The position numbers and the translations under genes were made by a program. From IMG/VR virus record IMGVR_UViG_3300037502_004180, positions 1 through 44,156 of that record: DNA of 44,156 nucleotides. One strand, written 5' to 3'. This document shows positions 1 through 44,156 of the stretch, piece by piece. This stretch comes from a virus. The notes under the pieces were generated by a model. That model ran no database searches and had not been told where the DNA came from. It saw nothing but the letters and a program-made list of their open reading frames with translations. Position 1 is the stretch's first letter. Each line of letters opens with the position of its first letter.

Positions 1-447
1 ATGAAAGATTTAGTGATTTATGTAAAACAATTAGAGTCTGCCAAGGGGTTACCACTCCCTTCTTATCAAAGTGATTTAGCCGCAGGAGCTGATCTTTATG
101 CAGCGCAGACACATACTATAGAGCCAGGAGCCTATGTGCTTGTGGAAACAGGGATAGCAGTAGAAATACCAAAAGGGTATGAAGCGCAAGTTCGTGCGAG
201 AAGTGGCTTGGCTGCAAAACATGGTATTGGTCTGGTAAATGGAGTGGGTACTATTGATGCAGACTACAGAGGAGAAATTAAGGTAATTATGATTAATTGG
301 GGAACAAAGGCGTACACGATTAACCGAGGTGAAAGAATTGCGCAGATGGTAATACAGCCCATTTTAAAAGCAAATTTTAAATTAACAAACCTTCTTTCTG
401 ATACCGAAAGAGGTGAAGGTGGCTTTGGACATACAGGGAATAAATAG
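1..447 (+). CDS. dut: dUTP diphosphatase (dUTPase)
   Basis: Hydrolyses dUTP to dUMP and pyrophosphate in the cytoplasm, keeping uracil out of DNA and supplying dUMP for dTMP synthesis. The 148 residues carry all five trimeric-dUTPase motifs: AGADLYAA near residue 28, RARSGL at 65-70, GVGTIDADYRGEIKV at 81-95 with the catalytic Asp, RGERIAQMV at 109-117, and the glycine-rich GEGGFGHTG near the C-terminus. Length is normal for the family. The ATG is the first base of the window, so its ribosome site is out of view and a slightly longer protein cannot be excluded. It sits just upstream of dpaA, which fits a chromosomal clostridial neighbourhood, so I read it as a host gene and not phage cargo. 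Confidence 0.95.
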   Translation: MKDLVIYVKQLESAKGLPLPSYQSDLAAGADLYAAQTHTIEPGAYVLVETGIAVEIPKGYEAQVRARSGLAAKHGIGLVNGVGTIDADYRGEIKVIMINWGTKAYTINRGERIAQMVIQPILKANFKLTNLLSDTERGEGGFGHTGNK

Positions 448-522: not shown

Positions 523-927
523 ATGAATACTTTATCGATCGCTGTTGTAGGTGGAGATTTAAGATTTATACGCTTAGCAGAAAAACTTTCAGTCCATTTT
601 ACTGTATACACTTATGGAATTGGGACAAAAGATGCTTCTTTAGGAATTAAACAATGTACAAAACTAGAAGAAATCAAAGTATGTGATTATATTATAGGGC
701 CTATCCCATTATCTAAAGACCATGAGCATATTTATATGCCTTTAAGTCAAAAAAAAGTAACCATTAAAGAGTTATGTGAAGTTTGTGGGCATAAAAAACT
801 TTTTGCAGGAGTAATCAAAGAAAGTGTAAAATCTTTATTTGGGCAATATAAGATAGAAGCAACGGATTTAATGGAGATAGAAAGCATTGCGATTGCTAAT
901 GCTATCCCTACAAAAGTGCGTATCTAA
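523..927 (+). pseudogene. dpaA: dipicolinate synthase subunit A, 5' part, cut by prophage
   Basis: The DpaA/SpoVFA subunit with DpaB makes dipicolinic acid for the spore core in the mother cell. The 134 codons match the N-terminal domain: a nucleotide-binding start (IAVVGGDLR), IIGPIPLSKD in the middle, and an end (IAIANAIPT) that in family members runs on as AEG and a further half of the protein. Full DpaA is about 290-300 residues. Here IPT is followed by KVRI and a stop, then a terminator and a serine recombinase on the other strand, so the 3' half was displaced by the prophage. GGAGG lies 7-8 bases before the ATG. The fragment could be rejoined by excision; as it stands it should not be functional. 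Confidence 0.87.
904..915. other. probable attL crossover region
   Basis: The dpaA reading frame matches the family up to the codons for Ile-Pro-Thr (904-912) and diverges straight afterwards, so the host-prophage boundary lies here or a few bases to either side. Serine recombinases need only a 2-bp crossover core. The exact core cannot be fixed without the right junction, which lies outside the window. Confidence 0.6.
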
Positions 928-957
928 AGAGGAGATTAACTCCTCTCTTTTTTTTTA
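928..957 (+). terminator. intrinsic terminator at prophage left edge
   Basis: AGAGGAG (928-934) pairs with CTCCTCT (940-946) around ATTAA, followed by a long T-run. It begins one base after the stop of the dpaA fragment. The stop codon of the opposing recombinase gene lies in the loop, so the phage end supplies both a stop codon and a terminator against host transcription. Confidence 0.85.
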
Positions 958-2579
958 CCAAAAAGCGTGATTTTAAGGCTTTCTCCATCCCATGTAATCT
1001 GATCAATGATGGTGCGGATGCGCGCTCTTTGCGTTTGGATATCTTCTGTATGCGCAAGGCTGCCTAGGTCGTTTAAAGCTTGCTTCACCATATCTAGATT
1101 TAATAATGTGATTTGATCCGTAGCAGCAGAGGTATTGATTGCTTTGATTTCTTTTTTGAGAGAGAGGTTTTCTTTATCCAGCGTTTCTAGTTGCTTCATA
1201 AAATGAGCGCAAAGAGGACTGGATTCATCCAGGGTGCTTAATTGTTTCATCAAGTTTGTGATAGCTTGTTCGTTGGCCACTAATTCAGTCTCTAGCTCTT
1301 TTAACTTTGCCTGCGTATCTTTTAATGCGCCATGAATGCTAAGCTCGTCTGAAGAGATCCCTTCCATCATAAAAGAATCTTTTTTAGAAAGAGAAACTAA
1401 TTGCTCAAGTACATCCTGATCAGCGTCTTGGCCAATAACATTTTTAACATTACACTTTATACGTTTAGACATTTCTTTCGTGCTGCATACATAAGTATAG
1501 GCTAAGTTTCCGTCTGCATTGACTTTCCCTTTTTTTATTTTCATGGTAGCGCCGCAGTGTTTGCATTTGATTAGATTGGTTAAAAGACCATAATCCATCG
1601 TTTTCTTTGTATAGAAGTTCTTGTGAGTATTATCTTTTAATAGGGTTTGAATGTACACCCATTTGCTTCCCTGTATTGTTGGAGCATGTTTTCCGATGGC
1701 TATAATCCAATTGGAAGGAGAAGCGCTTATGCGTTTGTTTGATTGCTCTGTGCGGTTATAAGCAATGAGTCCATACTTGCCGTTAAACTCCTCTTTGACA
1801 TTGCAAATATCACACCCAAGTTCAGACAGATAAGTATAAGCCGCTTCATCGGCAGCAACATATACAGGGTTGACTAAGATATCTTTAATGGTACTTGCCG
1901 TATATTTACACTCGTTTTTAGAATAGATATCATTCATAAACAAGTGGGATTCTACGCCCCGAAGACTCTTAAGCTCTAAAAAAGTATCAAAGATTGTATG
2001 CACCTTTTCAATTTCTACAGGCTCTGGTGACAATTTAAACATTTTTTTCTGATTCATACTGTTGTCTAGGTACAGGGTAGGTTCAGATGTAAATCCAGTA
2101 GGCGTTTTGCCTCCTAACCATCTACCAGTCCTAGCGAGTGCCCTCATATTGTCCTTAATGCGTTCTGCAATGGTCTCCCGTTCTAGCTGGGCAAATACCA
2201 TAGCAATGTTTAACATGGCACGTCCAATAGGCGTAGAGGTGTCAAATTGCTCTTTCACAGAGACAAACTCAATGTTGTTTTCTTGCAGCAATTCATAGGT
2301 ATTCGAAAAGTCAGCAATATTTCTGCTCACACGATCCAGGCGGTAGCAGATGAGCATATTAAACAAACCCTTTTTAGCATCTTTAAGAAGGGTCTTAAAC
2401 TGAGGGCGATCGATGTTACTACCAGAGAAGCCTTCATCCTTATAAATAATAAATTCTACTTCTTTGGAATCAAGAGAAGACCATCTTGTAATATAGTCTT
2501 TGCAAGAGTCAATTTGATTGTCTATAGATTCTCCTTTATCCGATGTTTTTGATTTACGCGCGTAGATTGCAATTTTCAT
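936..2579 (-). CDS. large serine recombinase (phage integrase)
   Basis: Catalyses integration, and with a directionality factor excision, of the prophage. The N-terminal resolvase domain begins MKIAIYARKS with catalytic Ser10 next to Arg8, followed by YRLDRVSRN and the LERETIAERIKDN helix. A recombinase domain with KTPTGF follows, then a zinc ribbon (CKHCGATM, a second pair of Cys about 30 residues on) and a long coiled coil typical of large serine integrases. I chose the ATG at 2579 because the GAGGTGA lies 5 bases before it; the ATG three codons upstream abuts that site. The gene is last in the leftward module and converges on the cut dpaA, the standard place for an integrase beside its att site. 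Confidence 0.93.
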   Translation of the reverse strand: MKIAIYARKSKTSDKGESIDNQIDSCKDYITRWSSLDSKEVEFIIYKDEGFSGSNIDRPQFKTLLKDAKKGLFNMLICYRLDRVSRNIADFSNTYELLQENNIEFVSVKEQFDTSTPIGRAMLNIAMVFAQLERETIAERIKDNMRALARTGRWLGGKTPTGFTSEPTLYLDNSMNQKKMFKLSPEPVEIEKVHTIFDTFLELKSLRGVESHLFMNDIYSKNECKYTASTIKDILVNPVYVAADEAAYTYLSELGCDICNVKEEFNGKYGLIAYNRTEQSNKRISASPSNWIIAIGKHAPTIQGSKWVYIQTLLKDNTHKNFYTKKTMDYGLLTNLIKCKHCGATMKIKKGKVNADGNLAYTYVCSTKEMSKRIKCNVKNVIGQDADQDVLEQLVSLSKKDSFMMEGISSDELSIHGALKDTQAKLKELETELVANEQAITNLMKQLSTLDESSPLCAHFMKQLETLDKENLSLKKEIKAINTSAATDQITLLNLDMVKQALNDLGSLAHTEDIQTQRARIRTIIDQITWDGESLKITLFGKKKERS

Positions 2580-2604
2580 TTCATTCACCTCACGATAAAA
2601 AGAT

Positions 2605-4689: not shown

Positions 4690-5061
4690 CTATTTCACTT
4701 TTTTTAAGTACTTAATATCCATTTCATGTTCTCCAACGGAAGATTTAATAATCCCAACTTCTGTTTGGAGAGAGGATAGCTTACTTGAGATAACTTCACT
4801 CATATCATTTGAGAGAAGTTGTGCAACATCCTTTGAAAGAGAATCAAAGCGATTATCTATTTTTGCATCGAGGGACTTAATATCCTCTTTTAAGTCTCGC
4901 TCAACACGCCCCAAATCCTCTTTAGTAACCATGCTGCTTTTAATAATTGCTATTTCACCCTTGATATTTTGTGTTTCGGATTCAAGAGCGCCTACCTTTG
5001 AATTTATTTCTTGCATTTCAGTGTACATCTTGGTCATTAAATCAAACATCTTATCTTCCAA
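4690..5061 (-). CDS. small coiled-coil protein, paralogue 2
   Basis: A 123-residue coiled-coil protein starting at TTG with a strong GGAGGG seven bases upstream. The first residues (MEDKMFDLMTKMYTEMQEI) are nearly those of the proteins at 2669 and 5146. Heptads with charged residues run the whole length (IKSSMVTKEDLGRVERDLKEDIKSL and so on). It is the longest of the three. Function unknown. The gene directly follows paralogue 3, so the pair probably shares a transcript. Confidence 0.75.
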   Translation of the reverse strand: MEDKMFDLMTKMYTEMQEINSKVGALESETQNIKGEIAIIKSSMVTKEDLGRVERDLKEDIKSLDAKIDNRFDSLSKDVAQLLSNDMSEVISSKLSSLQTEVGIIKSSVGEHEMDIKYLKKVK

Positions 5062-5074
5062 TTTTAAACCCTCC

Positions 5075-5391
5075 TTATTCAGATTGTCTAAAAGTATTTT
5101 TAATTACCTTAAATTCTAAGCGATCCACCTTGTTTTCAACTCTTTTCAAGTTGGTAGAACTTCTATGTCTTTATCTAGTTGAACCTCTCTAGCATCAAAT
5201 AAGGCATCTATCCTATCACCTAATTTATTTTCTAAATGAACAATATCTCTTTTAACAGAGAGGATATCCTCTTTAGTAGCCATAGTGGATTTCATATCTT
5301 GCATTTCAGATTTTACACCTTGGATATCAGCTTTCATACCTTGCATTTCATTGTACATCTTGGTCATTAAATCAAACATTTTTTCTTCCAT
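5075..5391 (-). CDS. small coiled-coil protein, paralogue 3, probably frameshifted at 3' end
   Basis: The open frame (5146-5391, 81 residues) starts MEEKMFDLMTKMYNEMQGM and ends EVLPT. In the next frame the coiled-coil pattern carries on as NLKRVENKVDRLEFKVIKN to a stop at 5075-5077, right at the ribosome site of paralogue 2. I read this as an original longer protein with a frameshift near 5150; the shorter 81-residue product may still be made. AAAGGA precedes the ATG. Function unknown. Confidence 0.65.
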
Positions 5392-6387: not shown

Positions 6388-6567
6388 GTGGGGAGATATG
6401 CAGACAAGATAACCATTGAGTTTTCAGAAGATCCAAACAGACCAACTTTTGAAGAAACATTAAAGGAAGTAAGAATAATGAATGCAAAAGCTTTTCTAAA
6501 ACAACTAACTCCCCAACAGAGAATGGAGTTTATTCGTATAGGTAAGGAGGCGGGGCTGATTACATAA
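6388..6567 (+). CDS. small early protein, GTG start
   Basis: A 59-residue frame beginning GTG with AAAGGGGGGAT seven bases upstream, reading VGRYADKITIEFSEDPNRP and ending RIGKEAGLIT. The composition is that of a soluble helical protein. I do not recognise a family. The good ribosome site, position after the cro-like gene, and coherent amino-acid composition support it as a real gene. Confidence 0.65.
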   Translation: MGRYADKITIEFSEDPNRPTFEETLKEVRIMNAKAFLKQLTPQQRMEFIRIGKEAGLIT

Positions 6568-15927: not shown

Positions 15928-16041
15928 TATATTTTTATAATATTTATAGAAAATTATTCTTGAGTTATTTTTTTATAGTATAATATACTTAGGTTAAATA
16001 CATAAAAAAATTATACTATTGGCTATGCCGTGGAGGGGAAA

Positions 16042-17312: not shown

Positions 17313-17382
17313 AAATGTACTACTTAATATTTCTTTTTGAATGAGGATATTATTATATTTAGTGGGGAAGGAGTTGTTTTGA

Positions 17383-20366: not shown

Positions 20367-20732
20367 TAAAAGTTCAAAAATAGCAAGATACATTATGGGC
20401 GTTATGTATCATTGATAGATTTTATAGTAGTAGAAAACTTAAGAAATACAAAGGGTTGAATAGGTTTTTAAAGATGAGAGAGATACAAAAGTTATCTATC
20501 ATTTTTGAGTAAGAAAAATAAAGCTTTATAAAACGTCTACAAATCTAATAATATCAAGCTATTGAGAGGTTCAAAAGCTTATAAAATGGTCTTTTAGAGC
20601 AACTGTAAGATAATTACAAAAAAGGTACTTTGAAGATTCTGAAAACGAGGTGCGGTTCTGCGAGCCCGAAACTTGTCTAGTTTCAAATTTTTGAAAACAT
20701 GGAGTGCCGTTTCCGTTAAGGGGGTAAAATTG
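20367..20732. other. 366-bp gap before terminase, possible cos region
   Basis: Mostly AT-rich, with a GC-richer block at 20647-20672 (CGAGGTGCGGTTCTGCGAGC and onward) and again at 20700-20725. The terminase is of lambda gpNu1/gpA type, which cuts at cos, and cos lies just upstream of Nu1 in lambda-like phages. No coding frame is supported here. The candidate cos is positional only. Confidence 0.4.
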
Positions 20733-21314
20733 ATGGCTGAAACTAAAAAAATAGAAAGCATTGAATCGCTCACAGTATCAGCATCTGTTTTAGCTGATTT
20801 GTTAAATGTGACTGAGAGAAGAGTAAGACAATTAGCAGAAGAGGGTATTTTTACAAGAGTGGCAAAAGGGAGATACAACCTTCCTGAAAGCATTAAAACC
20901 TATCTCAATATGTTAAAGATGGAAAAGGACATTATAGGGAGTAATGCTCCAGGAGAAATAGAACTTGAAACAGAAAGAGCAATTAAGACAAGAGTAGAGC
21001 GAAAGCAGGCAGAAATAAAACTTGCGCTTATGAAGGGGCAAGTACATAAAGCTTCTGATGTAGAGCAGGTCATGGTGGATATGCTCACTTCATTTAGAAC
21101 AAGACTGCTTAATATTCCTGCTAAACTTGCGCCTATTTTAGTGGATAGAAAAGAGACAGGTTATATTAAGGAAATGATTACAGCAGAAATGATTGAAGTA
21201 TTAAATGAATTAAAAGATTATAACCCAGCTGACTTCTATGCAAAAGAACACATTGAATATGATGAAGAAGAAATTGAAACCTATGAAGTAGGAGGTGAGG
21301 AGGATGAATCATAG
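20733..21314 (+). CDS. terminase small subunit (Nu1-like)
   Basis: 193 residues. The N-terminal winged-helix-like region (SLTVSASVLADLLNVTERRVRQLAEEGIFTRVAKGRYNLPESIKTY) is that of the Nu1 family, which binds the packaging site; the C-terminal helical part contacts the large subunit and ends very acidic. ATG 20733 has AAGGGGG eight bases upstream; the frame is open upstream to 20673 without a site. It overlaps the terL gene by 11 bp. Confidence 0.85.
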   Translation: MAETKKIESIESLTVSASVLADLLNVTERRVRQLAEEGIFTRVAKGRYNLPESIKTYLNMLKMEKDIIGSNAPGEIELETERAIKTRVERKQAEIKLALMKGQVHKASDVEQVMVDMLTSFRTRLLNIPAKLAPILVDRKETGYIKEMITAEMIEVLNELKDYNPADFYAKEHIEYDEEEIETYEVGGEEDES

Positions 21315-23139
21315 GACATTAGAACTCTTTAATAAGATTGTGAAAGTAATGTCCCCTCCACCTATATTAAAAATAAGTGAATGGGCAGATGAGTATAGAC
21401 GCTTATCAGCAGAAGCTTCAGCAGAGCCAGGGAGATGGAATACAGATAGAGCGCCGTATCAAAGAGAGATTATGAACGCGCTTAATGATGCAGCCGTTGA
21501 AGATGTTGTGGTAATGAGTTCTTCGCAGGTAGGCAAGACAGAAATCGTTTTAAACATATTGGGCTATTATATTGACTATGATCCCTCGCCAATTATGATT
21601 ATGCAGCCTACAGATGCAATGGCACAAGCTTTTTCAAAAGACAGACTAGCACCTATGATTCGGGATACACCTAGTTTAACAAAAAAGGTAAAGGACCCTA
21701 AGAGTAGAGACAGTGAAAATACGATTCTGCATAAGAAGTTTCCAGGCGGACACGTAACGATTGTAGGAGCTAATGCCCCAAGTGGATTAGCATCAAGACC
21801 TATTAAAATACTCTTGTGCGATGAGGTAGACCGCTATCCTCCATCTGCCGGGAAAGAGGGAGACCCTGTAAATCTTGCAAGAAAGAGGACAACAACCTTC
21901 TGGAACCGTAAAAAAATCCTTGTATCTACACCAACCATCAAAGGGATATCTCGTATTGAACAAGAATATGAATCAAGTAGTAAAGAGCAGTGGCAAGTAG
22001 AATGTCCTTGTTGTGGCACTTACCAGCCTTATGACTTTAATCGCATGAACTTTAAAGAGGTGACAATGGAGTGCATTTCATGCAAAGAAAGATTCAATGA
22101 AGTGAAGTGGAAGAGTCAACCCAGTAAGTGGGTGGCTTTAGCAGATAATCCTCAAAAAAGAGGGTTCCACTTAAATGAAATGGCTTCTCCTTGGAAACGA
22201 TGGGAAGCCATTATTGAAGATTTTAAAGAAGCGCATAAACATTTTAAGGAAACAAGAAGCACAGAGCAACTAAAAGTTTTCAACAATACTTCTTTGGGTG
22301 TCACATGGGAGATTAAAGGGGAAGGAGTGGAAGAGGATTCCCTACTAGGAAGAAGAGAGAAATATAAGGCGCAGCTGCCTAAAGAGGTTGTTGTTCTAAC
22401 AGCAGGTGTAGATGTGCAAGATAACCGTTTAGAAATTGAAGTTGTTGGATGGGCTAAGGGGTTTGAAAGTTGGGGTATTCAATACCACACGCTCTTTGGA
22501 GACCCAAGTAAAGATGAGATATGGGAACGATTAGAAGAATACCTAGATAATGAATTTACTTTTGAAGATGGAACAAGCTTACTGATCGCAGCAACTTGCA
22601 TTGATACAGGAGGTCATTTCACAGATAAGACCTATAGCTTTTTAAAGCAAATAGAGAAAAAACAAAAGCGTATTTATGGCGTGAAGGGTCAAGGGGGCGC
22701 AAGCTTGCCCCTTATTTATAAAAAGACACGCAATACCAAGAATGGGGTGGCAATTTATATTCTTGGGGTAGACCAAGGAAAAGAAATCATTATGTCAAGA
22801 TTAAATACGAAAGAAGCAGGCCCTGGTTATTGTCATTTCCCTCTCAATATAGACAGAGGATACGATGAAATGTATATGCGGGGACTAACAAGTGAGCAAA
22901 GAATCGCAAATGTAGATAAGAAAGGGAATACAAAGCTTGAGTGGATTAAAAAGAGTGGTACACGAAATGAACCTCTTGATTTAAGGAATTACGCAACGGC
23001 AGCCGTTCAGTTACTAAATCCTAATTGGGATAAGTTAAAAGAAAAGCTAGATCAAGGAATCAACTATATGGAAAAACAAGATAAAAAGAAGCAACCTTCT
23101 AGAAAAAGAGGGGCTATCGGACAAGGAGTGAGTATTTAA
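21304..23139 (+). CDS. terminase large subunit (lambda gpA family)
   Basis: 611 residues. Packaging motor and cos endonuclease. Walker A-like SSSQVGKT at residues 72-79, Walker B LLCDEVDRYP near 171, two CxxC pairs (CPCCG and CISCK, a zinc site of this family), and the nuclease start GVDVQDNRLEIEVVGW. Length is normal for gpA. ATG 21304 has GGAGGT seven bases upstream; the preceding gene overlaps by 11 bp, so the two subunits are co-translated. Confidence 0.95.
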   Translation: MNHRTLELFNKIVKVMSPPPILKISEWADEYRRLSAEASAEPGRWNTDRAPYQREIMNALNDAAVEDVVVMSSSQVGKTEIVLNILGYYIDYDPSPIMIMQPTDAMAQAFSKDRLAPMIRDTPSLTKKVKDPKSRDSENTILHKKFPGGHVTIVGANAPSGLASRPIKILLCDEVDRYPPSAGKEGDPVNLARKRTTTFWNRKKILVSTPTIKGISRIEQEYESSSKEQWQVECPCCGTYQPYDFNRMNFKEVTMECISCKERFNEVKWKSQPSKWVALADNPQKRGFHLNEMASPWKRWEAIIEDFKEAHKHFKETRSTEQLKVFNNTSLGVTWEIKGEGVEEDSLLGRREKYKAQLPKEVVVLTAGVDVQDNRLEIEVVGWAKGFESWGIQYHTLFGDPSKDEIWERLEEYLDNEFTFEDGTSLLIAATCIDTGGHFTDKTYSFLKQIEKKQKRIYGVKGQGGASLPLIYKKTRNTKNGVAIYILGVDQGKEIIMSRLNTKEAGPGYCHFPLNIDRGYDEMYMRGLTSEQRIANVDKKGNTKLEWIKKSGTRNEPLDLRNYATAAVQLLNPNWDKLKEKLDQGINYMEKQDKKKQPSRKRGAIGQGVSI

Positions 23140-29209: not shown

Positions 29210-30664
29210 ATGTATAAACATGGTGTATTTGCTGAAATTATGGCAACAAAAGAGTTTGTTCCTCCGAAAGCACTAGGAACCCTTCCTGTATATTTCGGGA
29301 CATTACCAGTGCATCAATTGGAGGGATATAGAGATAAAGTGAATCGGCCTATTTTAGTAAGTAGTTTTAAAGAGGCACAGACACTTGTAGGGTACTCAAA
29401 TGAGTGGAGAGATTATACGTTATGTGAAGCAATTGAGGCACACTTTAGAAACAACGTTCAAACCATAGGGCCGATTGTCCTTATCAATGTACTTGACCCG
29501 GATGTGCATGTAGAAGAAAGTGTATCAACAGCTCAAGTATCCCTTTTAAAAGGAGTAGGATATATTTACGACAGAAATCTAGTGCTTGCTAGTGTTGAAA
29601 TTGAAGGGAAGACAAAAGGATTAGACTATACAGCCCAGTATATTTCTGAAGGAGAACGCGTAGAAATTAGGGATTTGAATGGAAGCTTGTTAAGTGAGGT
29701 AGCAGTAAGTTTTATGCGAGTAGATCCTGCAGCAGTGCAAGAGAGTGATGTAATTGGAGGAACCTCTTCTTTAGGTGAGCGAAGTGGTATTGCAGTGGTT
29801 GATTTGGTCTATCAAACCCTTAATAGAGTCCCTACGTTACTAGCCAGTCCTTATTGGAGTACAAAACCTAGCGTAGATGCAGCGCTTAAAGCAGCAAGCC
29901 AAAAAATCAATGGACATTGGTACGCTTTTATAAATAGTGACATTAGTTCAACCCAAAACGGGTCAGATACGCTGGCAAAAGCTAAAGTCGCTAAAGTGGA
30001 AGAGGGTTATGCAAGTGCGCTAGAAAGTCCTTGTTGGCCAATGGGGAAAAATGGACAAGGGAAATTGTTTCACCTCTCTACATTGACAACCGTTACAATG
30101 CAATGGGTAGATTTTAATAATGATGGAGTACCTGTTGAAACACCTTCTAACAAGCCGATTGATATTAAAGAGTTGTGCCTTGCAGATGAGACCACTATTG
30201 ATTTTGACCAAATACAAGCAAATGAATTAAATAGTAAAGGGATTCGTACAGCTATTTACTGGGGTGGTAGATGGGTGCTTTGGGGTTCGCATACTGGAGA
30301 GTATGAGTTTGGGAAAGACATGGATCAAAAAAATATTTTTGATTGTTCTGTTCGTATGTTGTACTATGTAGCAAATACTTTTCAAAGTAGGTATGGCACG
30401 TTGGTAGACAAGCCTTTTACAAGGGCCCTTAAGGATACTATCTTAAATGACATGCAAGAATGGCTAGACAATCTTATGGCGCAAGGAAGGCTTCTTTTAG
30501 CCAATATTTCTTTTGAAGAAAGCAGTAATCCTACATCAGATATTGTTGAGGGGGATTTTGTTTTTGACATTGCAACCACCACCACACCACCAGGGAAATC
30601 ACTTACAGCTAAAATTGCTTACACAGCTGAGGGTCTAGATATACTATTTGGAGGTGACCAATGA
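29210..30664 (+). CDS. tail sheath protein
   Basis: 484 residues of the contractile sheath family: N-terminal KALGTLPVYFGTLPV and LVSSFKEAQTLVGYSNEWRDYTLCEAI, a large variable middle, and the conserved C-terminal region (TFQSRYGTLVDKPFTRALKDTILNDMQEWLDNL). It contracts to drive the tube into the cell, which shows this is a myovirus-type tail. GAGAGGTGAG ribosome site. Ends in an ATGA overlap with the tube gene. Confidence 0.95.
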   Translation: MYKHGVFAEIMATKEFVPPKALGTLPVYFGTLPVHQLEGYRDKVNRPILVSSFKEAQTLVGYSNEWRDYTLCEAIEAHFRNNVQTIGPIVLINVLDPDVHVEESVSTAQVSLLKGVGYIYDRNLVLASVEIEGKTKGLDYTAQYISEGERVEIRDLNGSLLSEVAVSFMRVDPAAVQESDVIGGTSSLGERSGIAVVDLVYQTLNRVPTLLASPYWSTKPSVDAALKAASQKINGHWYAFINSDISSTQNGSDTLAKAKVAKVEEGYASALESPCWPMGKNGQGKLFHLSTLTTVTMQWVDFNNDGVPVETPSNKPIDIKELCLADETTIDFDQIQANELNSKGIRTAIYWGGRWVLWGSHTGEYEFGKDMDQKNIFDCSVRMLYYVANTFQSRYGTLVDKPFTRALKDTILNDMQEWLDNLMAQGRLLLANISFEESSNPTSDIVEGDFVFDIATTTTPPGKSLTAKIAYTAEGLDILFGGDQ

Positions 30665-31167
30665 TTATTTCAGGAAGTATTATCGCGCATAAATTGTTTG
30701 CAGATGGAGAAGAAATCTTTGACCAGGTATCTTGTCAGCTTCCATCTATCGAAAAAGCAACGGTTGAGTTAAAAGGAGCAGGAATTCTAGGGGCTATTGA
30801 TATGCCACAAACAGGACAAATTAACTCAATGACTTTCAGCATTAGTTCAAGAGGAGTGAATGCTAAAGCAACTAAGCTAGCGCGAGAAGGCAAACAATCC
30901 CTTGAAATACGTTTTGTAAGAGATGTAACTCAAGGAGATGGGAGTATCATCAAAGAAGGCAGTAAAATTTTCATTACAGGTTTTAATAAGAAATATGAGC
31001 CTGGTAAAATTGAGCAAGGTTCCCTTATGGAAGGGACTATTGAATTTGAAGTAGTACGCTATCGCCAAGTGATTGATGGTGTAGAAACTCTGTTAATTGA
31101 TAAGTTAAACTACATTTATAAAATCAATGGAGTAGATTATATGGAAAAGGTAAGAGCTTCCCTTTAA
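30661..31167 (+). CDS. major tail tube protein (P2 FII-like)
   Basis: 168 residues with the tube-protein pattern: ISGSIIAHKLFADGEEIFDQVSCQLPSIEKATVELKGAGILGAIDMP near the start and a C-terminal beta region ending YKINGVDYMEKVRASL. It stacks into the inner tube inside the sheath. Follows the sheath gene as in P2. Confidence 0.93.
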   Translation: MIISGSIIAHKLFADGEEIFDQVSCQLPSIEKATVELKGAGILGAIDMPQTGQINSMTFSISSRGVNAKATKLAREGKQSLEIRFVRDVTQGDGSIIKEGSKIFITGFNKKYEPGKIEQGSLMEGTIEFEVVRYRQVIDGVETLLIDKLNYIYKINGVDYMEKVRASL

Positions 31168-31188
31168 AGGGGGCTCTTTATTTATGCC

Positions 31189-31569
31189 ATGAAAACAGTA
31201 AAAAAGATTTCAAGAGTAGCAAAAAATAAAAATAAAGAAATGAAGGTGTATTGGTATATGGAAAATCAAGTATTGCAACTAACAAGACCTATTATGATCA
31301 ATGGGGAAGAGGTAAAAGAACTAAAGTATGATTTTGATGGGATGACAGGAAGAGACAAAGTGAATGTAGGCAAGCGAATCAAGCAAGATGGAATTCCTGT
31401 TTCTGTAGAAGAGTTAGACACAGACTACCATATGTATCTATTTGCAGGAGCAGTTACAAAAGCAAATGCTGATATTGATATCTCAGATGTCATGCGCTTA
31501 AGTGCTAAAGACATCCAAAAAGGAGCAGCTTTAGCAAGAAATTTTTTCTATCTCGATTCGGAGGAGTAA
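31189..31569 (+). CDS. tail assembly chaperone, zero-frame product
   Basis: 126 residues: a basic N-terminus, then ITRP-like TRPIMINGEEVKELKYDFDGMTGRDKVNVGKRI, and an end at FFYLDSEE. Homologous in position and pattern to P2 gpE and Mu gp41. The ATG has no close ribosome site; an AGGGGG lies about 15 bases upstream. A slippery run near its end gives the longer product described separately. Confidence 0.85.
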   Translation: MKTVKKISRVAKNKNKEMKVYWYMENQVLQLTRPIMINGEEVKELKYDFDGMTGRDKVNVGKRIKQDGIPVSVEELDTDYHMYLFAGAVTKANADIDISDVMRLSAKDIQKGAALARNFFYLDSEE

Positions 31570-31736
31570 TCTCAGATCAAGAGATTATAAAATGTGCAGC
31601 AAGGATTACTTATTGCACCTCTACAGATTATATAAGTGCTTTAGAACTGCCTTTACAAGACTTGATAAGTTTTATAGATGCTCTAAATGAAGTATCCAAA
31701 GAAATGAGAGAGGAGGGAGCTAAAAATGGCAAGTAA
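31189..31736 (+). CDS. tail assembly chaperone, -1 frameshift product
   Basis: T-TTT-TTC at 31542-31548, in the chaperone frame, is a classic slippery heptamer. A -1 shift there opens 62 codons (31548-31736) reading through VISDQEIIKCAARITY to EMREEGAKNGK and a stop, giving about 181 residues, the two-product pattern of P2 E/E' and lambda G/GT. The extra segment should bind the tape measure protein. Its end overlaps the tape-measure ATG by 11 bp. Confidence 0.82.
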
Positions 31737-33624
31737 AAGGGAGCTAAAAGCTTTAATTACGTTGGCAGGTAAGATAGACCCCTCACTTTCAAATGCTCTT
31801 TTAAAAACCAGTGCTGACAATAATAAGTTAAGCCAAACCCTCCAAAAAACAACTACCCAATTCAAAAAAAGCACCACAGAAGGGGCTAAGTTTGGGGACA
31901 TGCTAAAAGCTAGTTTTTTAGGAAGCTTAGCAGCAAAGGGAGTCAGTACACTTATTAATAGCATGAAGCAAGTAGGAAGCGAAGCACTGAGTATGGCAAG
32001 TAGTCTAACCGAAGTGCAGAACGTGGTAGATGTTGCTTTTGGGTCGAGCGCAGCAGAGATTGATGCATGGTCCAAAACAGTTCTTAAGAATTATGGACTT
32101 ACAGAGCTGCAAGCAAAACAATGGACAGGAAGCATGGGGGCCATGCTTAAAAGTAGTGGAGTGGCTCAAGAAGATACCGTGCAGCTTTCTACAGACTTGG
32201 CAGAGCTTGCAGGAGATTATGCTTCCTTCTATAACTTGGATCATGATACAGCATGGCAAAAAATACGAAGTGGAATCGCAGGAGAAACAGAGCCTCTTAA
32301 AGAACTTGGTATTAATATGTCCGTAGCGAACCTAGAACAATATGCAATGAGTAGAGGAATAGAAAAATCTTTTAAAAATATGACTCAGGCAGAGCAAACC
32401 TTGTTAAGGTACAATTACTTAATGGAAAACTCAGCAGATGCACAAGGCGACTTTTCAAGAACTTTAGAAACTTCATGGGAGAATCAAAAAAGGTTACTAA
32501 AAAACAGTATTATGGAAAAGGCTGCAAGTGGATTGTCAAAATTTATCCCACTTCTTACAGAGTTTACCTCAAAGGCAAATCAATTTGTTAGTAACATTGA
32601 TATGGATGCCGTATTGGTTAGAGTAGAACAGGGCTTTCAATTACTAGGGGCTAGTGTTGGATGGGTAAAAGATAATTTGAATTGGCTTATCCCCATTGCA
32701 CTCACAGTAGCCTCTATTGTAGCAGGATTCAAAATAATGGAGAGTGTTAGACAGATTAGTGAACTTGTGACATGGATAAAGAATACTACGCTAGCAACGA
32801 AATTATTTAATTTTGAAAAAATAAAAGAAGTAGCCCTTTTAGCAAAAGATGCCTTTGTAAAAGGGATAAGCACAGCAGGGACTTGGGCGATGGTGGTTGC
32901 TCAAGGGGCTCTAAATGGAATTATCGCCATAGGCACAGGCATTATGTCAGCCTTTGGAGCAGTAATGGCATTTATCACATCCCCTATTGGATTGGTGATA
33001 TTAGCAGTAGGGGCGCTTATTGCTATTGGGGTATTGTTGTATAAAAATTGGGATACCATTTCTCAGTTTATGGTAGGGACATGGCAAAATTATATTATGC
33101 CTTTCTTTAGTGGAGTAGGCGAATGGTTTGGTGGCATATGGACGGGTATGGTGGATGGTTTTAAATTGGCATGGAATGGAATCACTTCTTGGTTTGGAAG
33201 CCTATGGGATGGCATTGTAGGCCTCTTTAAGGGCTATGTAAATATCTATATTAATATTTTTAACTTGATTATTGGCGCCCTTAATAAGATTAATTTTGAC
33301 ATTCCTGATTGGGTGCCAGGCATAGGAGGCAAATCCGTAGGAGTTAATATTCCAACCCTTCCTACCTTTGCACTAGGAGGGATTGCAACGCAAGCTTCTA
33401 TTTTTGGAGAGGCAGGGCCTGAAATGGCAATTCCTCTTAAAAGAACGTCTAGAAATGTTGGTTTATTAAATCAAACAGCCCAGATACTAGGAGTTGGTGG
33501 AGGTAGCAATGGTAAAACCATTCATATCCATATTAACGGTGGCAATCTTGAGGAAGTGAAAAGAGTTGTTTTAGAAGTGATTTCAGATAAAGAAGAAGAT
33601 GAGGAGTTGATAAGCTTTGCATAA
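31726..33624 (+). CDS. tail tape measure protein
   Basis: 632 residues. N-terminal amphipathic helices (GKIDPSLSNALLKTSADNNKLSQ), a TMP core motif (WTGSMGAMLKSSGV, WQKIRSGIAGETEPLKELGINMS), hydrophobic segments (IPIALTVASIVAG, PIGLVILAVGALIAIGVLLY) and a C-terminal GEAGPEMAIPL motif usual in these proteins. It sets tail length. A smaller tape than in many myoviruses, so a short tail. GGAGGGAGC before the ATG. Confidence 0.95.
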   Translation: MASKRELKALITLAGKIDPSLSNALLKTSADNNKLSQTLQKTTTQFKKSTTEGAKFGDMLKASFLGSLAAKGVSTLINSMKQVGSEALSMASSLTEVQNVVDVAFGSSAAEIDAWSKTVLKNYGLTELQAKQWTGSMGAMLKSSGVAQEDTVQLSTDLAELAGDYASFYNLDHDTAWQKIRSGIAGETEPLKELGINMSVANLEQYAMSRGIEKSFKNMTQAEQTLLRYNYLMENSADAQGDFSRTLETSWENQKRLLKNSIMEKAASGLSKFIPLLTEFTSKANQFVSNIDMDAVLVRVEQGFQLLGASVGWVKDNLNWLIPIALTVASIVAGFKIMESVRQISELVTWIKNTTLATKLFNFEKIKEVALLAKDAFVKGISTAGTWAMVVAQGALNGIIAIGTGIMSAFGAVMAFITSPIGLVILAVGALIAIGVLLYKNWDTISQFMVGTWQNYIMPFFSGVGEWFGGIWTGMVDGFKLAWNGITSWFGSLWDGIVGLFKGYVNIYINIFNLIIGALNKINFDIPDWVPGIGGKSVGVNIPTLPTFALGGIATQASIFGEAGPEMAIPLKRTSRNVGLLNQTAQILGVGGGSNGKTIHIHINGGNLEEVKRVVLEVISDKEEDEELISFA

Positions 33625-33817
33625 ATATAGTACGGTAAGAGGCGATACTTTTGATAGTATCGCTTTATTATTTTATGATGATGAGTTTAAGGCGAACCTT
33701 ATAATGGAGGCAAATCCTCTCTATATTAAAACCATTGTTTTTGAATCAGGCATTACTCTCCACATTCCTATTCTTCAAGAAGAAGTAGCAGATACATTGC
33801 CACCATGGAAGAGGTGA
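33617..33817 (+). CDS. tail protein X (LysM-like)
   Basis: 66 residues: YSTVRGDTFDSIALLFYDDEFKANLIMEANP, the LysM-like pattern of P2 gpX that caps tube and hub. Starts at TTG, overlapping the tape-measure gene by 8 bp. Confidence 0.85.
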   Translation: MHKYSTVRGDTFDSIALLFYDDEFKANLIMEANPLYIKTIVFESGITLHIPILQEEVADTLPPWKR

Positions 33818-33821
33818 TTAG

Positions 33822-34718
33822 ATGAAACTTATTTATGAAGGAAAAGACATTACAAATGAAGTTGAAATAAATGAAGCGCAGTTCCTGGATTGCGCGGGAG
33901 GAAAGTTTGATCGCATAAAAATAGTATTTAATAATCCCTCAAATGATTGGAGCTTATGGAAACCTCAAAAATATCATGCCATAGAGCTTATCAATGAAAG
34001 TGTTTCAAGTGGCAAAATGTTTGTAGCTGTAGTAAAACAACAAGGGAATGCTATTATTTTAAAAGCAGTACCTATTAAAAAAATGACAAAAGAGAAACGT
34101 ACAAAATCATGGGAGAATGTTACACTGCAAGAGATTTTAAACGAGTTTGCAATGAGGCATGGCTTGAACCTGAAAACATATGGAACTGAAAACTTCTTAT
34201 ATAATCGGATAAATCAAGTAAATGAGGCTGACTTTGAATTTTTAAAAAAACGCTGCATGATAGAAGGGTATAGTCTTAAAATATCCAATGGGAATCTGAT
34301 TGTTTTTAATGAGGAGGAAATGGAGCGGCAACAAAGTATTACAGTTACAGAGCAAGACATTATAGGAAATTTTTCCTATAAGACAAAAGAAATATATGGT
34401 GCAGTAAAATTGGTTCATGGGAATATAGAAAACTTTTACCCGAAGCAGGTCCAAGAGGGAGCAGTGTTGATGGTTGACGACTTAGAAGTAAATAGTATTG
34501 GTGAAGCTCAACGTTTTGGCAAAAACATTTTAAATCAGCATAATAAATTTGAGCATACCATTGGCTTTGATACGAGGTTGAATACAAATGTAGCAGCAGG
34601 AAGCATGATAGTTCTCAAAGGGCTAGGGCTTAGTGATGGGAAGTATTTTATTTATGAAAAAATAGATTCTTATACGGAAGATAAGAGTTCTTTTTGTTTA
34701 AGACGGATAAGAGGGTGA
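33822..34718 (+). CDS. baseplate hub protein (P2 gpD-like)
   Basis: 298 residues. Late control gene D family: YEGKDITNEV, a lipase/protein-fold core, LLYNRINQVNEADFEFLKKRC, and a C-terminal KGLGLSDGKYFIYEKIDS. It forms the tail hub on which the spike sits. AGAGGTGAT ribosome site. Confidence 0.9.
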   Translation: MKLIYEGKDITNEVEINEAQFLDCAGGKFDRIKIVFNNPSNDWSLWKPQKYHAIELINESVSSGKMFVAVVKQQGNAIILKAVPIKKMTKEKRTKSWENVTLQEILNEFAMRHGLNLKTYGTENFLYNRINQVNEADFEFLKKRCMIEGYSLKISNGNLIVFNEEEMERQQSITVTEQDIIGNFSYKTKEIYGAVKLVHGNIENFYPKQVQEGAVLMVDDLEVNSIGEAQRFGKNILNQHNKFEHTIGFDTRLNTNVAAGSMIVLKGLGLSDGKYFIYEKIDSYTEDKSSFCLRRIRG

Positions 34719-34723
34719 TCCAA

Positions 34724-34924
34724 GTGAATTACAAAGGTATTGTCTCTAGTAAAGAAGGTCAGATGTTCAAAGTTTTCATCAAAGAAAAAGCATATTTAAC
34801 AGGGCTTATCCCAAGGTGCGTAGACGTATCAGACTTACAAGTGGGTGATGAAGTAGTGGTTAGCTTTTTTGGAAACAACTTAATAGATGGGGCAATTGTT
34901 GGCCTTATAAAGAGGGGTGGATAA
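34724..34924 (+). CDS. small baseplate protein (gpV-like OB fold)
   Basis: 66 residues, GTG start with AGGGTGAT upstream, reading MNYKGIVSSKEGQMFKVFI and LQVGDEVVVSFFGNNLIDGAIVGLIKRGG. The beta-barrel pattern matches the OB-fold part of gpV-type spike/baseplate proteins, far shorter than P2 gpV. The beta-helix spike tip is not evident. Confidence 0.7.
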   Translation: MNYKGIVSSKEGQMFKVFIKEKAYLTGLIPRCVDVSDLQVGDEVVVSFFGNNLIDGAIVGLIKRGG

Positions 34925-34927
34925 AAT

Positions 34928-35494
34928 ATGTTGTTTTGCATATTTGGACCAAAAGGATTTACAGTAAGCTCAGACAAAATCATGACTTTTGAAGATTTTA
35001 AATTCGCTACAAGCTTAGAAACCCAAAAGCAAGAAAATCTAGGGAGAAAGCCTAGTACACAGATTAAAAATGTAAATCTAAGTACATTTAGTATTAAAGT
35101 CAAAGTGGATGCAACATTAGGTGTTCACCCATCAGCACAGATTGATGAATGGATCAATGTACTTTCACAAGCAAAGCCTTACCCCTTTTTATTGAATGGG
35201 AGCCCTTTTTTAAATACAAAATGGCTTTTGGTAAATGTAACTGTGGACAAGACGAGTGTAGATAAGTATGGTAATATTTTATCTGCTGAATTAAATTTAA
35301 GTTTTGATGAATTTGCAAGTAAGGCTGCAGCTACAGTTTCTAGTACTAGCTCAAGTGCAGCAAGTGGTACAAAAATAGGTTCTAGTAAAGCTGAGAATAC
35401 AGACTCAGTATATGAGGCATTAAGGCCAAAGCAAAAATCAGAATTAAAAGTAAGTAGCCTATCTAAGCTTAGGTCAAATGAGCAAACCGTTTAG
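34928..35494 (+). CDS. tail protein U (P2 gpU-like)
   Basis: 188 residues. MLFCIFGPKGFTVSS and the region around WINVLSQAKPYPFLLNGSPF match the P2 gpU tail-completion family. The last 60 residues are low complexity Ser/Ala, then basic. In P2 gpU follows the tape measure; here it lies after the spike gene. Confidence 0.8.
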   Translation: MLFCIFGPKGFTVSSDKIMTFEDFKFATSLETQKQENLGRKPSTQIKNVNLSTFSIKVKVDATLGVHPSAQIDEWINVLSQAKPYPFLLNGSPFLNTKWLLVNVTVDKTSVDKYGNILSAELNLSFDEFASKAAATVSSTSSSAASGTKIGSSKAENTDSVYEALRPKQKSELKVSSLSKLRSNEQTV

Positions 35495-35505
35495 AGGAGG
35501 GAAAT

Positions 35506-35811
35506 ATGTTATATGAAATAGATACCTCACAAGAATATACCCTCGATTGGAGGGCAAAAGGAGAACAAAGAATCCTACAAAATATAAGGAATCTATTAAG
35601 TACTTTTAGGTATGAAGTGGCTTTTGATAGAACAAAAGGGCTAGATCCTACATTGTTGGATAAACCTGCTGAAACGGCTCTTGCTATGTATATATCAGAA
35701 GTGTATAGACTTGTAGAAACCTATGAGCCAAATGCAAAGGTTAAAAACGTATCTGCAACAGGAATAGATTCTAAAGGGAATATAGCATTAAAGGTGGTGA
35801 TTGAAATTTGA
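35506..35811 (+). CDS. baseplate wedge protein W (gp25-like)
   Basis: 101 residues: a helical start with LDWRAKGEQRILQNIRNLLSTFRYEVAFDRTKGLDPTLLDKP, as in gpW/T4 gp25 wedge proteins, and a beta end. GAGGAGGG ribosome site. Its stop overlaps the start of the next gene. Confidence 0.85.
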   Translation: MLYEIDTSQEYTLDWRAKGEQRILQNIRNLLSTFRYEVAFDRTKGLDPTLLDKPAETALAMYISEVYRLVETYEPNAKVKNVSATGIDSKGNIALKVVIEI

Positions 35812-36923
35812 GCATACAGTTTGTAGAAGTAGATGCTAAGAAGATTTATAATGAAATGTTAATTGCCTTTCAAACGGCTTTGGGAGAAGTTTTATATCCA
35901 GGCGATGAAAGACGTATTTTTTTAGAGCAAGAAGCCCAGCTTATTGTGGCGCTTTACAATGCTATTAATGACAGTGCAAAGCAAAACCTACTACGGTATG
36001 CAAGAGGCGAGGTTTTGGATGCGATTGGAGAAAGTAAAGATGTTATGCGCTTAGTCCCACAAAAAGCTACTTGCTTGATGCGCTTCACCTTATCAGCCCC
36101 TCAACAAACAAATATCATTATTCCCAAAGGGACAAGAATAACTCCAGATGGGGTTTATTTTTTTGAAACGATTGAAGAAAAAACAATATATTCGGGAGTT
36201 ATAGAAATTGATATTCAATCGGTAGCAACGGTTGCAGGAGCAAGTCACAACGGATTTAGCCAAGGACAAATCAATGCGCTAGTGGATATCATTCCATTTG
36301 TAGGGCAAGTTACCAATATGGATGCCACAAGTGGAGGGGCAGATATTGAGGCAGATGATGATGGGGTAAATGTATGGAGTGGGTACAGAGAAAGGATTAG
36401 GCTTGCAAGTGCTAAGATTAGTACAGCAGGGCATGAGTTAGGTTATATTTATTATGCCAAAAGTGCAGATGCAAATATACAAGATGTTGTAGCCACTTCT
36501 CCCAATCCAGGAGAGGTACTCATTACAGTACTTATGAAGGATGGGGAGCTACCTACTGAGGTAATTTTGCAAAAAGTATATCAAAGCTGCAGTCCCAAAC
36601 ATGTAAGGCCACAAACAGATCATGTCCTAGTTGCCCCTCCAGAAGTTGTTTCTTACAACATCAATCTCACTTATTACATTAGTTATGAGGAAGAGACAAA
36701 GGCGCTCTCTATTAAGGAAGCAGTAGAAGCAGCAGTCGCAGAGTACAAACAGTGGCAAGACACAAAAATAGGGAGGGCCATTAATCCTGATAGATTAAGA
36801 CAGCTTATTTTAAATGCTGGAGCAAGTAGAATCATATTATCAAGCCCTACCTTTACAGAACTTACAGAGACACAAATTGCCAAAGTAGATGCTATAGATG
36901 TTGTATATGGAGGGTTAGAATAG
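35808..36923 (+). CDS. baseplate protein J-like
   Basis: 371 residues of the baseplate J (Mu gp47, P2 gpJ) family: YARGEVLDAIGESKDVMRLVPQKATCLMRF, IPKGTRITPDGVYFFETIEEKTI, and NINLTYYISYEEETKALSIKEAVEAAVAEY. It builds the wedge that joins hub and fibres. TTG start overlapping the W gene by 4 bp. Confidence 0.92.
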   Translation: MSIQFVEVDAKKIYNEMLIAFQTALGEVLYPGDERRIFLEQEAQLIVALYNAINDSAKQNLLRYARGEVLDAIGESKDVMRLVPQKATCLMRFTLSAPQQTNIIIPKGTRITPDGVYFFETIEEKTIYSGVIEIDIQSVATVAGASHNGFSQGQINALVDIIPFVGQVTNMDATSGGADIEADDDGVNVWSGYRERIRLASAKISTAGHELGYIYYAKSADANIQDVVATSPNPGEVLITVLMKDGELPTEVILQKVYQSCSPKHVRPQTDHVLVAPPEVVSYNINLTYYISYEEETKALSIKEAVEAAVAEYKQWQDTKIGRAINPDRLRQLILNAGASRIILSSPTFTELTETQIAKVDAIDVVYGGLE

Positions 36924-41117: not shown

Positions 41118-41936
41118 ATGACAAATCATGAATTCGTAGCAAAGCTTCAGGAGATTGCAGATAATTATAAGACTGTTTATATGTGGGGAGTCTTTGGCTC
41201 CCCTGTAATGGGTCCAATTATTGCTTCGAAATCAAACCAATACCCAGAATGGTACACTTCAACCAAACAAGCACAATTACGGCAACTAGTAGGCAAAGGG
41301 TATTTTGCTTTTGACTGCGTAAATCTTATCAAAGGAGTACTGTGGGGATGGAATGGAGATTCTACAAAATCAAATGGTGGAGCAGCGTATGCTTCTGCGG
41401 GTGTGCCTGACATAAACGCAGACACTATGATTATTAGATGCAAAGATGTGTCCACAGACTTCTCTAAGATTGAGGTAGGCGAAGCAGTTTGGATGCCAGG
41501 GCATATTGGTGTGTACATTGGTAATGGTAAAGTCATTGAGGCTACTCCTAGTTGGGAGAATAAAGTTCAAGTAAGTGCTTGTGCAAATATTGGGATAATC
41601 CAAGGATTAAACAGTAGAAGATGGACAAGTCATGGAAAGCTACCTTATATCAAATATGTAACAAGTACTATATCTACAATAGTAAAAGATGAGGAGTTAG
41701 AAAAAGCAGTAGGAATACTATTTCAAAAAGGAATCATCGGATCTCCAGCAGTCTGGATTTCTTTAAATAAAATAAACCTCAAGAATGTGCCATCTTTATT
41801 ATTCAAAATGGGTGGAATAGAGGTATTGGTGGCAGACGGAGTAATTAGCAACAGACAGGTTTGGGCGAGTGGAACTTATACGAAAGACAATGTGCGATCG
41901 TTAATTATTAAGTATGTAAGAATGAATAAAGGGTAA
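41118..41936 (+). CDS. NlpC/P60-like endolysin
   Basis: 272 residues. Cys67 in FAFDCVNLIKG and His129 in PGHIGVYIGNGKVIEA suit an NlpC/P60-type cysteine peptidase that cuts peptidoglycan stem peptides. The C-terminal 90 residues (from about LEKAVGILFQKGIIGSP) are a likely wall-binding region I do not recognise. No signal peptide, so it depends on the holins. AAGGAGG ribosome site. Confidence 0.88.
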   Translation: MTNHEFVAKLQEIADNYKTVYMWGVFGSPVMGPIIASKSNQYPEWYTSTKQAQLRQLVGKGYFAFDCVNLIKGVLWGWNGDSTKSNGGAAYASAGVPDINADTMIIRCKDVSTDFSKIEVGEAVWMPGHIGVYIGNGKVIEATPSWENKVQVSACANIGIIQGLNSRRWTSHGKLPYIKYVTSTISTIVKDEELEKAVGILFQKGIIGSPAVWISLNKINLKNVPSLLFKMGGIEVLVADGVISNRQVWASGTYTKDNVRSLIIKYVRMNKG

Positions 41937-42497: not shown

Positions 42498-44156
42498 ATG
42501 AAATTCAGGCGAATAGACGCTTATTATAATATATATGATGTAAAAGAATCAGGAGTTGTTTACCTAATTTTTGATTATTGGGATGATTACTCCTATTGTA
42601 CTACGTTTAATGCTTATTATAGAGAGGATGACTCAAAAGAGGCTGTGGAGCTGGGCACAGTAAAAATCGGCTGTCTTTCATTAGCGAGTAAAGGTGAGCG
42701 ACGTTTGTCAGTTAATGGTTTTGAATCATTTTCAATTAAAAAATTAATTCCTAGTGAACTATTTAATAAGTTACCAAATGATTTTTTTTCTTTAGGTCAA
42801 GATATGGAGTATTATAAAAAAATTAATAATATTTTTGAAGATGAAAATACGGAATATTATGATTCGCTAAAAGATATAGCTTATGATTATAAACGATTTA
42901 AGATATTATATGAGGAATCAGAACCATGTTTGAAAAGTTCATTGATGAGAAATTTATATATTCCCAGTGTAGAACAATTTAATAGAATTTCTAAAGGGCA
43001 AGCGGAATTAACAGAGTACTCATTTATATTTAAATGTAATGAGGAGCAAATTGGTCTTAATGTTATTCCAAGCTCGTTACCTCCAACGAATATTCATATA
43101 TTGATTGGGAGAAATGGAGTAGGAAAAACCTGGCTATTGCATAATATTGTTTGTAAATTGCTTGATAATTGTGGTGTAGATATTAATGGATTAGAAAAGT
43201 CGAATAAATATACCATAAGTGATGCTTTCTCTATTGAATGCCCTCAAAATAGTTTTGCAGGTATTATTGGACTATCATTTAGCGTTTTTGATGATGCCCT
43301 AGCAATTGATATTAAAAATAAAAATCAAAGACTAATAGATGAATTTAAAAAAAAATATAAATATATTGGCTCAATTAGTAAAAGTCAAAAAGACGGTAAA
43401 ACAAAAGTTAAATCTGTTGAGGATTTATCAACTGAATTTATGGAAGCTTTAAGTGAAATAAGTAAAAGTAGAAATAAAACAGAAACATATTTGGAAACTT
43501 GTAAAAATTTAGATAGCGATTCAATGTTTAATGAAAATGGGTTTATTATCCTTTTGGAATCTTATTTTAAAAATAATAAAAGACAAGATGTTTACTTAAA
43601 TGAAAATAATGGACAAGAAACAGCTTTAGAAAAATTTCATGAAAAAGTAAAAAAATATTTTCAAAGATTAAGCTCAGGGCACATGATAATAATACTTTCT
43701 TTAACATTATTATCACAATCAATTTCTGAAAAAACAATTGTACTAATTGATGAACCAGAAACGCATTTACATCCTCCTTTGCTTTCTACATATATAAGAA
43801 CATTATCCTTTCTATTATTAAAGAAAAATGCTGTTGCAATTATTGCTACACACTCTCCTATTGTTTTACAGGAAGTTCCTAAAGATTGTGTTAATAGGAT
43901 TGAGCGAATTGGTCCCTATATGCAGTTCCATAAAATAACTCTTGAGTCATTTGCAACAAACACAGACTCCTTAACGAGAGAAGTATTTGGGCTAGAAGTT
44001 ATAAAAACTGGGTTTTATCAATTAATAGAAAAGGAAATAGAAAATACTTTTGAGGAGAGTTTTAATAAATTTGACCAAAAAGTTGGATTTTTAGGTCAAG
44101 TGTTAATGCAAAGCTTAATTAATAAAAAGGGAGATACTGATGAGAAAAATAAATAA
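42498..44156 (+). CDS. AAA/ABC-type ATPase, probable defence gene
   Basis: 552 residues. Walker A GRNGVGKT at 204-211, signature-like LSSGH near 394-398, Walker B TIVLIDEPETHLHP near 415, H-loop ATHSPIV near 451: an AAA_21/OLD-type ATPase. The first 200 residues are a family-specific extension. Such ATPases pair with nucleases in antiphage systems such as Septu and Gabija. The stop codon is the last three bases of the window, and another gene starts inside its 3' end. It lies between the lysis module and the expected attR, a usual cargo site. Weak AGAGAGGAG ribosome site. Confidence 0.85.
   Translation: MKFRRIDAYYNIYDVKESGVVYLIFDYWDDYSYCTTFNAYYREDDSKEAVELGTVKIGCLSLASKGERRLSVNGFESFSIKKLIPSELFNKLPNDFFSLGQDMEYYKKINNIFEDENTEYYDSLKDIAYDYKRFKILYEESEPCLKSSLMRNLYIPSVEQFNRISKGQAELTEYSFIFKCNEEQIGLNVIPSSLPPTNIHILIGRNGVGKTWLLHNIVCKLLDNCGVDINGLEKSNKYTISDAFSIECPQNSFAGIIGLSFSVFDDALAIDIKNKNQRLIDEFKKKYKYIGSISKSQKDGKTKVKSVEDLSTEFMEALSEISKSRNKTETYLETCKNLDSDSMFNENGFIILLESYFKNNKRQDVYLNENNGQETALEKFHEKVKKYFQRLSSGHMIIILSLTLLSQSISEKTIVLIDEPETHLHPPLLSTYIRTLSFLLLKKNAVAIIATHSPIVLQEVPKDCVNRIERIGPYMQFHKITLESFATNTDSLTREVFGLEVIKTGFYQLIEKEIENTFEESFNKFDQKVGFLGQVLMQSLINKKGDTDEKNK
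44140..44156 (+). CDS. start of the next gene, partial
   Basis: ATG 44140 (MRKIN, then the window ends) overlaps the ATPase 3' end by 17 bp and has AAAAGGGAG seven bases upstream, so it is probably translated with the ATPase. The product cannot be told here; an HNH or other nuclease is the family-based guess. Confidence 0.55.

Follow-up and report, generated by a model that had tools for sequence, protein, structure and literature searches.

A temperate prophage in the dipicolinate synthase gene dpaA, at a codon recurrently split by serine recombinase elements in Clostridia

Intervening elements have been described in the sporulation genes sigK, spsM, spoVFB, spoVR, gerE and yabG (PMC4191935, PMC5595907, PMC5025042, PMC6957869, PMC10747680). 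The element vfbin, reported among the intervening elements of mother-cell genes, was found in spoVFB (dpaB) of Bacillus weihenstephanensis KBAB4 (PMC4191935, PMC10747680) and, as at the locus described here, a dipicolinate synthase gene is interrupted by a mobile element; however, vfbin concerns dpaB and Bacilli, whereas the present elements were found in dpaA and in Clostridia, where the recombinases fall into several unrelated families and three positions of a single gene are used. SP-beta, which occupies spsM of B. subtilis (PMC4191935), is, like the element analysed here, a full temperate phage with a large serine recombinase (LSR) in a spore gene, and its precise excision restores spsM. 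The gene, the host class and the phage are different, and sporulation-specific excision is proven for SP-beta but not here. The skin element in sigK (B. subtilis and C. difficile; PMC5025042) is likewise an LSR element, the excision of which rebuilds an essential sporulation gene in the mother cell, but in that case a defective prophage occupies a regulator gene, whereas the present element is a near-complete phage in a biosynthetic gene. The gin element in gerE of B. cereus ATCC10987 (PMC5595907) is a non-phage LSR element in a mother-cell gene, similar to the 3-20 kb elements of five Clostridia genomes described below (G233, G654, G643, G580 and G493). It contains three LSRs and the accessory factor GirX, whereas the non-phage elements of Clostridia contain one LSR with a ~40-aa ORF of common sequence directly upstream. 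The element yin (PMC10747680) is prophage-like, contains an LSR and is located in yabG, a late sporulation gene, of Clostridium botulinum, differing from the present one in the gene and the recombinase. Insertion into a sporulation gene is a known kind of event, and by analogy the present element would resemble SP-beta in spsM in its working. The gene dpaA was not named as a target in the open-access literature searched (subscription papers and preprints were outside the scope), and its use as a recurrent target with three sites, doubly split in whole species, is apparently new.

The window, by which we mean the whole stretch of DNA that was analysed, is a 44,156-base IMG/VR provirus record that is cut within the phage, and the right junction and the host genome lie outside the data. 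The left flank of the prophage was found to contain the host gene dut (dUTP diphosphatase; 1..447, + strand; NCBIfam dut above cut-off), directly followed by the 5′ part of dpaA (dipicolinate synthase subunit A; 523..927, + strand), which was identified by Pfam DpaA_N and by the junction against intact relatives. This ORF contained 134 aa, with ~130 host codons up to NAIPT followed by four phage-derived codons (KVRI) and a stop. Its end was ESIAIANAIPT followed by KVRI, where the intact DpaA of Cellulosilyticum contains DEIAILNAIPTAEGAIQ (NAIPTAEGAIQ). The Pfam DpaA_N match covered positions 6-117 (E 7e-25), the NCBIfam dipicolinate synthase A model was matched at positions 3-136 of 297 only, and the ORF scored 79 bits against the DpsA cut-off of 261, so that it contained the N domain only and the criterion of a full-length DpaA was not met. 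With dpaA interrupted at NAIPT and an LSR gene adjoining it, as found from the sequence and the domain matches, the criterion of an interrupted sporulation gene was met.

The LSR (936..2588, − strand; Pfam Resolvase, Recombinase and Zn-ribbon; PHROG integrase) met the criterion of a site-specific recombinase carried by the element. It was found to be convergent with dpaA, with its 3′ end 9 bp past the dpaA stop, which means that the dpaA promoter cannot drive it and that it would need a promoter of its own. The initial annotation had claimed that dpaA runs normally for about 130 codons to Ile-Pro-Thr and then stops, which was borne out by the domain matches and the intact relatives, and that an LSR gene begins 9 bp after it, which was borne out only in part, because the LSR abuts dpaA but it is the 3′ end of a convergent gene that lies there.

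The attL core AATGCTATCCCTACA was placed at 898..912 (+ strand), position for position with the attL/attR core AATGCAA(C/T)CCCTAC of a Cellulosilyticaceae genome (G018), the exact crossover being unresolved. It was followed by the attL phage arm CCCTACAAAAGTGCGTATCT (906..925, + strand), of which a near-equal arm was found in G018 (19/20 positions equal, 1/20 different). No second copy of the inverted attP arm was found in the window besides attL, which is expected because the right end of the element is missing. The record ends at 44156 inside the prophage, after a Septu ptuA-like gene, and therefore the right end of the element lies outside it. The 3′ half of dpaA was absent from the record; by analogy with the relatives it is likely to start near ATCCCTACNGCNGARGG in the host, which is predicted and was not seen.

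The window was found to meet the criteria of a temperate contractile-tail prophage, i.e. the presence of integrase, repressor/cro, terminase, sheath, tape measure, baseplate and lysis genes. The small and large terminase subunits (20673..23139, + strand; PHROGs) were followed by the tail sheath, tape measure and baseplate genes (29210..36923, + strand; PHROGs), for most of which the identity to the G018 prophage was 54-79% (74% for the sheath and 60-79% for several tail proteins), and by an endolysin (41118..41936, + strand; PHROG). The last gene was a Septu PtuA-like ATPase (42498..44156, + strand; PADLOC PtuA E 5e-158), the ptuB partner of which is probably located just beyond the record end. 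A 59-aa ORF just past the cro-like gene (6388..6567, + strand) was found to have homologues in G018, G007, G023 and L182, such ORFs of 59-62 aa after cro being common to the dpaA prophages. It had no Pfam family above cut-off and no PHROG match, and it is a possible recombination directionality factor by inference only.

The closeness of the phage to the G018 prophage makes a Cellulosilyticaceae-like host likely but not proven. The nearest relatives were reached by a DpaA scan of species genomes, which led to Cellulosilyticum. The window host itself was absent from 24 family and 392 order genomes, the best DpaA identity being 42%. Scanning viral contigs with either protein of the window singly, the DpaA half or the LSR, gave nothing usable, and dpaA was not found in phage records, the only occurrences being in two large Bacillus-type plasmid records. 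Most of the relatives were fragmented metagenome assemblies without reads or expression data.

Four more Cellulosilyticaceae genomes (G018, G023, G007 and G017) were found to contain dpaA split at the window codon, with homologous LSRs or attL arms. The window LSR was 63%, 58% and 46% identical to the dpaA-site LSRs of G018, G007 and G023, respectively, all of one clade. The 5′ and 3′ halves of G018 dpaA were located on the same strand of one 1.4-Mb contig, 46.8 kb apart, with an integrase homologous to that of the window adjoining the 3′ half. The attL of G018 was AATGCAACCCCTACACAAGTGCGTATCT and its attR ACGCACTTGTGTAGGGATAGTAAATGCAATCCCTACTGCTGAGGG, the latter containing a perfect 16-bp inverted copy of G018's own attL phage arm, from which an attP with perfect 16-bp inverted arms is implied. 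The joined flanks were found to read AAT GCA ATC CCT ACT GCT GAG (NAIPTAE), giving a 290-codon gene in frame. The halves of G023 were located 23.6 kb apart on the same strand of one contig and the join NAIPTAEG was in frame, again with 290 codons. The joined DpaA scored 302 and 278 bits (G018 and G023, respectively) against the NCBIfam DpsA (NF006162) cut-off of 261, the G018 5′ half alone scoring 83. Each half was present in a single copy, without a second dpaA in either genome. A missing 3′ half at the far end, an out-of-frame join or a second intact dpaA had been named beforehand as refuting a rebuildable gene, and none of these was met in G018 and G023, where the 3′ half was found at the far end on the same strand. 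The elements of the window and G007 were oriented opposite to those of G018 and G023; a palindromic crossover dinucleotide was weighed for this difference and the centre of the G018 attP points to AA, which leaves the question undecided.

An assembly artefact, in which a phage contig was fused to a dpaA fragment, can almost be excluded. IMG/VR records are trimmed and can be metagenome-derived, which speaks for it, but a like junction with homologous phage DNA was found in G018 on its 1.4-Mb contig, in G007 and in the IMG/VR record UViG_2832721004_000002, which the G018 element matches (probably the same element).

Among 391 Clostridia genomes sampled across the class, 221 of which contained DpaA, further two-piece dpaA genes were found. 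The split was again at NA(I/V)PT in G654, G643, G580, G493 and G439 and in G233, that of G439 being of the same kind as in the other five. The complete elements at NA(I/V)PT in these genomes were 2.9-20 kb long and mostly non-phage, with mainly metabolic or transport genes as cargo, and the LSRs of the non-phage elements (G233, G654, G643, G580 and G493) came from an unrelated family whose identity to the phage type was about 19-31%. The joins of these six genomes were in frame with 284-306 codons, and the joined dpaA of all eight relatives (these six, G018 and G023) contained no frameshift or stop. The break of dpaA in the window is not due to chance, because a same-codon break was found in at least 10 other genomes, and the relatives show that the phenomenon is much wider than one prophage.

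Other breaks of dpaA were also observed. The dpaA of G468 (L179 and L180) was found to break off at residue ~188 next to a Tn916-like tyrosine integrase, its parts being located on two contigs, which is another way of interrupting the gene. Contigs were broken exactly at the NAIPT codon in G090 (end of L138 and start of L151) and G165 (end of L153 and start of L152); these could possibly reflect the inserted and the excised forms both being in the sample, and they were left out of the split counts.

In the family of G580, 70 genomes were sampled and 58 contained DpaA, which was split in 15/58, whereas the control gene dapA (a vegetative enzyme of the same length) was in pieces in 0/63 genomes and partial in 1/63 (Fisher p 6e-6 against 0/63 and p 6e-5 against 1/63). 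One genome (G782) was counted from the search only and another (G770) is probably a chimeric bin and was set aside, the count being 13 without both. The splits were located at three conserved motifs, NAVPT (site 1; n=10), ASKPGGVDF (site 2; n=8) and LPGKIAP (site 3; n=1). The dpaA of G784, G787, G788 and G789 was found in three pieces, with an LSR element after NAVPT followed by another in ASKPGGVDF (L195-L204); pieces 2 and 3 were on different contigs, the junctions themselves being inside contigs. The LSR grouping was found to follow the attachment site and not only the host, with a phage-type and a non-phage type lineage at site 1, a separate clade at site 2 and a fourth lineage at site 3. 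The gene dpaA is a recurrent home for LSR elements in Clostridia, with unrelated LSRs at one codon and two further conserved motifs in use.

An orthologous site-1 element was present in G784, G785, G787, G788 and G789 (LSRs 84-92% identical), which points to one old insertion inherited since. Its four complete copies contained a ~5-kb core at ~90% DNA identity, the remainder being variable (8 to 14 kb). Across this same divergence, the joined dpaA of the four triple-split species was found to have dS of 0.23-0.46, dN of 0.014-0.031 and dN/dS of 0.04-0.07. Had the gene been inactive since the insertion, its dN/dS would be expected to approach 1, and the values are most simply explained by joining and use of the pieces. 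In G785 and G789, a small ORF and the LSR were found to follow the dpaA 5′ half at a distance of ~220 bp and in its orientation, so that the dpaA promoter itself could possibly drive both. A block CATATACATA was conserved upstream of the small ORF-LSR pair in G784-G789, for which no function is claimed.

The 4.2-kb dpaA element of G466 was found to contain the only full-length glmS found in that genome (L209 4550-6376; G466:C183:8052-9872). By inference, this element could not be lost from growing cells and could be dropped in the dying mother cell.

Permanent loss of the gene, with the 5′ half as a remnant in a host on its way to losing DPA synthesis or sporulation, had been named as the other option and is very unlikely. 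It is supported by the duplicated and frameshifted 5′ half of G017, by the 3′ half not being found in G007 and G017, and by several relatives that carry no dpaA at all. However, the assemblies of G007 and G017 are small and fragmented, the window half has an undamaged reading frame and is located at precisely the position used in complete, restorable relatives, and the option is disfavoured by the dN/dS of the three-piece genes. Some split dpaA genes are possibly dead, given the two genomes without a 3′ half and the frameshift. The G017 5′ half (L124) was observed to end in a window-type phage arm with a frame-shifting tandem duplication upstream, and this copy may be decaying or misassembled.

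An ordinary temperate phage with dpaA as its attB would excise only on induction, leaving dpaA off in the lysogens, which would form DPA-poor or no spores. The full structural and lysis modules of the window phage speak for this, together with the convergent LSR without a visible sporulation promoter and the frequent targeting of conserved genes by LSR phages (PMC10083194). Against it are the strong purifying selection on long-split and even triple-split dpaA, the conservation of the split sites through speciation and the intact reading frames of the eight joined genes. We regard this explanation as unlikely, but the counter-evidence concerns relatives with mostly non-phage elements, and for the window prophage it is still possible.

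The best explanation overall, and a likely one, is a dpaA-specific prophage that is developmentally excised to rebuild dpaA, the excision and its timing being inferred without data on expression or on an excised product. Excision by serine integrases generally requires a directionality factor, and expression of the spoVF (dpaAB) operon takes place in the mother cell. In the proposed mechanism, a temperate contractile-tail phage with a dpaA-specific LSR would have entered the chromosome of a Cellulosilyticaceae-like Clostridium at one fixed attachment site within dpaA, namely the DNA coding for the conserved loop NAIPTAEG. At sporulation, the LSR and a directionality factor would excise the element in the mother cell, so that dpaA would be rebuilt and DPA made, and the spore chromosome would retain the prophage. 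The interruption, the recombinase and attL were found in the window, and the relatives supplied attR, the adjoining 3′ half and an exact join in frame. The claim that excision could rebuild dpaA is supported through relatives with homologous recombinases, and the in-frame joins, the hot-spot counts and the dN/dS argue strongly for such rebuilding. The mother-cell timing remains an inference by analogy with skin, SP-beta and vfbin, for which the selection on split genes is only indirect support. A simple pattern search for sigma-E/sigma-K promoters upstream of the LSRs gave one weak match and none clear for most. In a bolder reading, towards which the balance of evidence leans slightly, several Clostridia lineages would normally carry a split dpaA assembled by mother-cell DNA excision, with three motifs as attachment sites and at least four recombinase lineages, two excisions being needed in some species and at least one element having captured an essential glmS (G466).

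DPA is a main determinant of spore heat resistance. If dpaA needs assembly by recombinases, the quality of the spores of many gut Clostridia is contingent on mobile elements, and such bacteria would wrongly be scored as DPA-negative or non-sporulating by automated annotation. Insertions in mother-cell genes are harmless in growing cells and are discarded only in the cell that dies, and independent insertions at one codon offer a natural setting in which to test why such genes are occupied by mobile elements.

A few other features were observed in the window and in related records. A cluster that is possibly a phage-borne defence island was found at 16030-18967. It contained a candidate-defence protein of PDC-S15 type (PADLOC), a membrane/coiled-coil protein of 375 aa and a protein of 173 aa with a weak match of DarG-like type. 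The region 19070-20366 contained two tandem similar proteins of ~210 aa, tyrosine recombinase-like, besides the serine integrase. Three paralogous coiled-coil proteins with the common start MEDKMFDLMTKMY were located near the integrase (2669-2935, 4690-5061 and 5146-5391), and proteins resembling this trio were also found near the integrase in G007 and G018. Two other viral records (L183 and L184) were found to contain LSRs 40% identical to the window LSR, directly followed by the remainder of an apparent FAD-dependent oxidoreductase gene, which is possibly another split gene.
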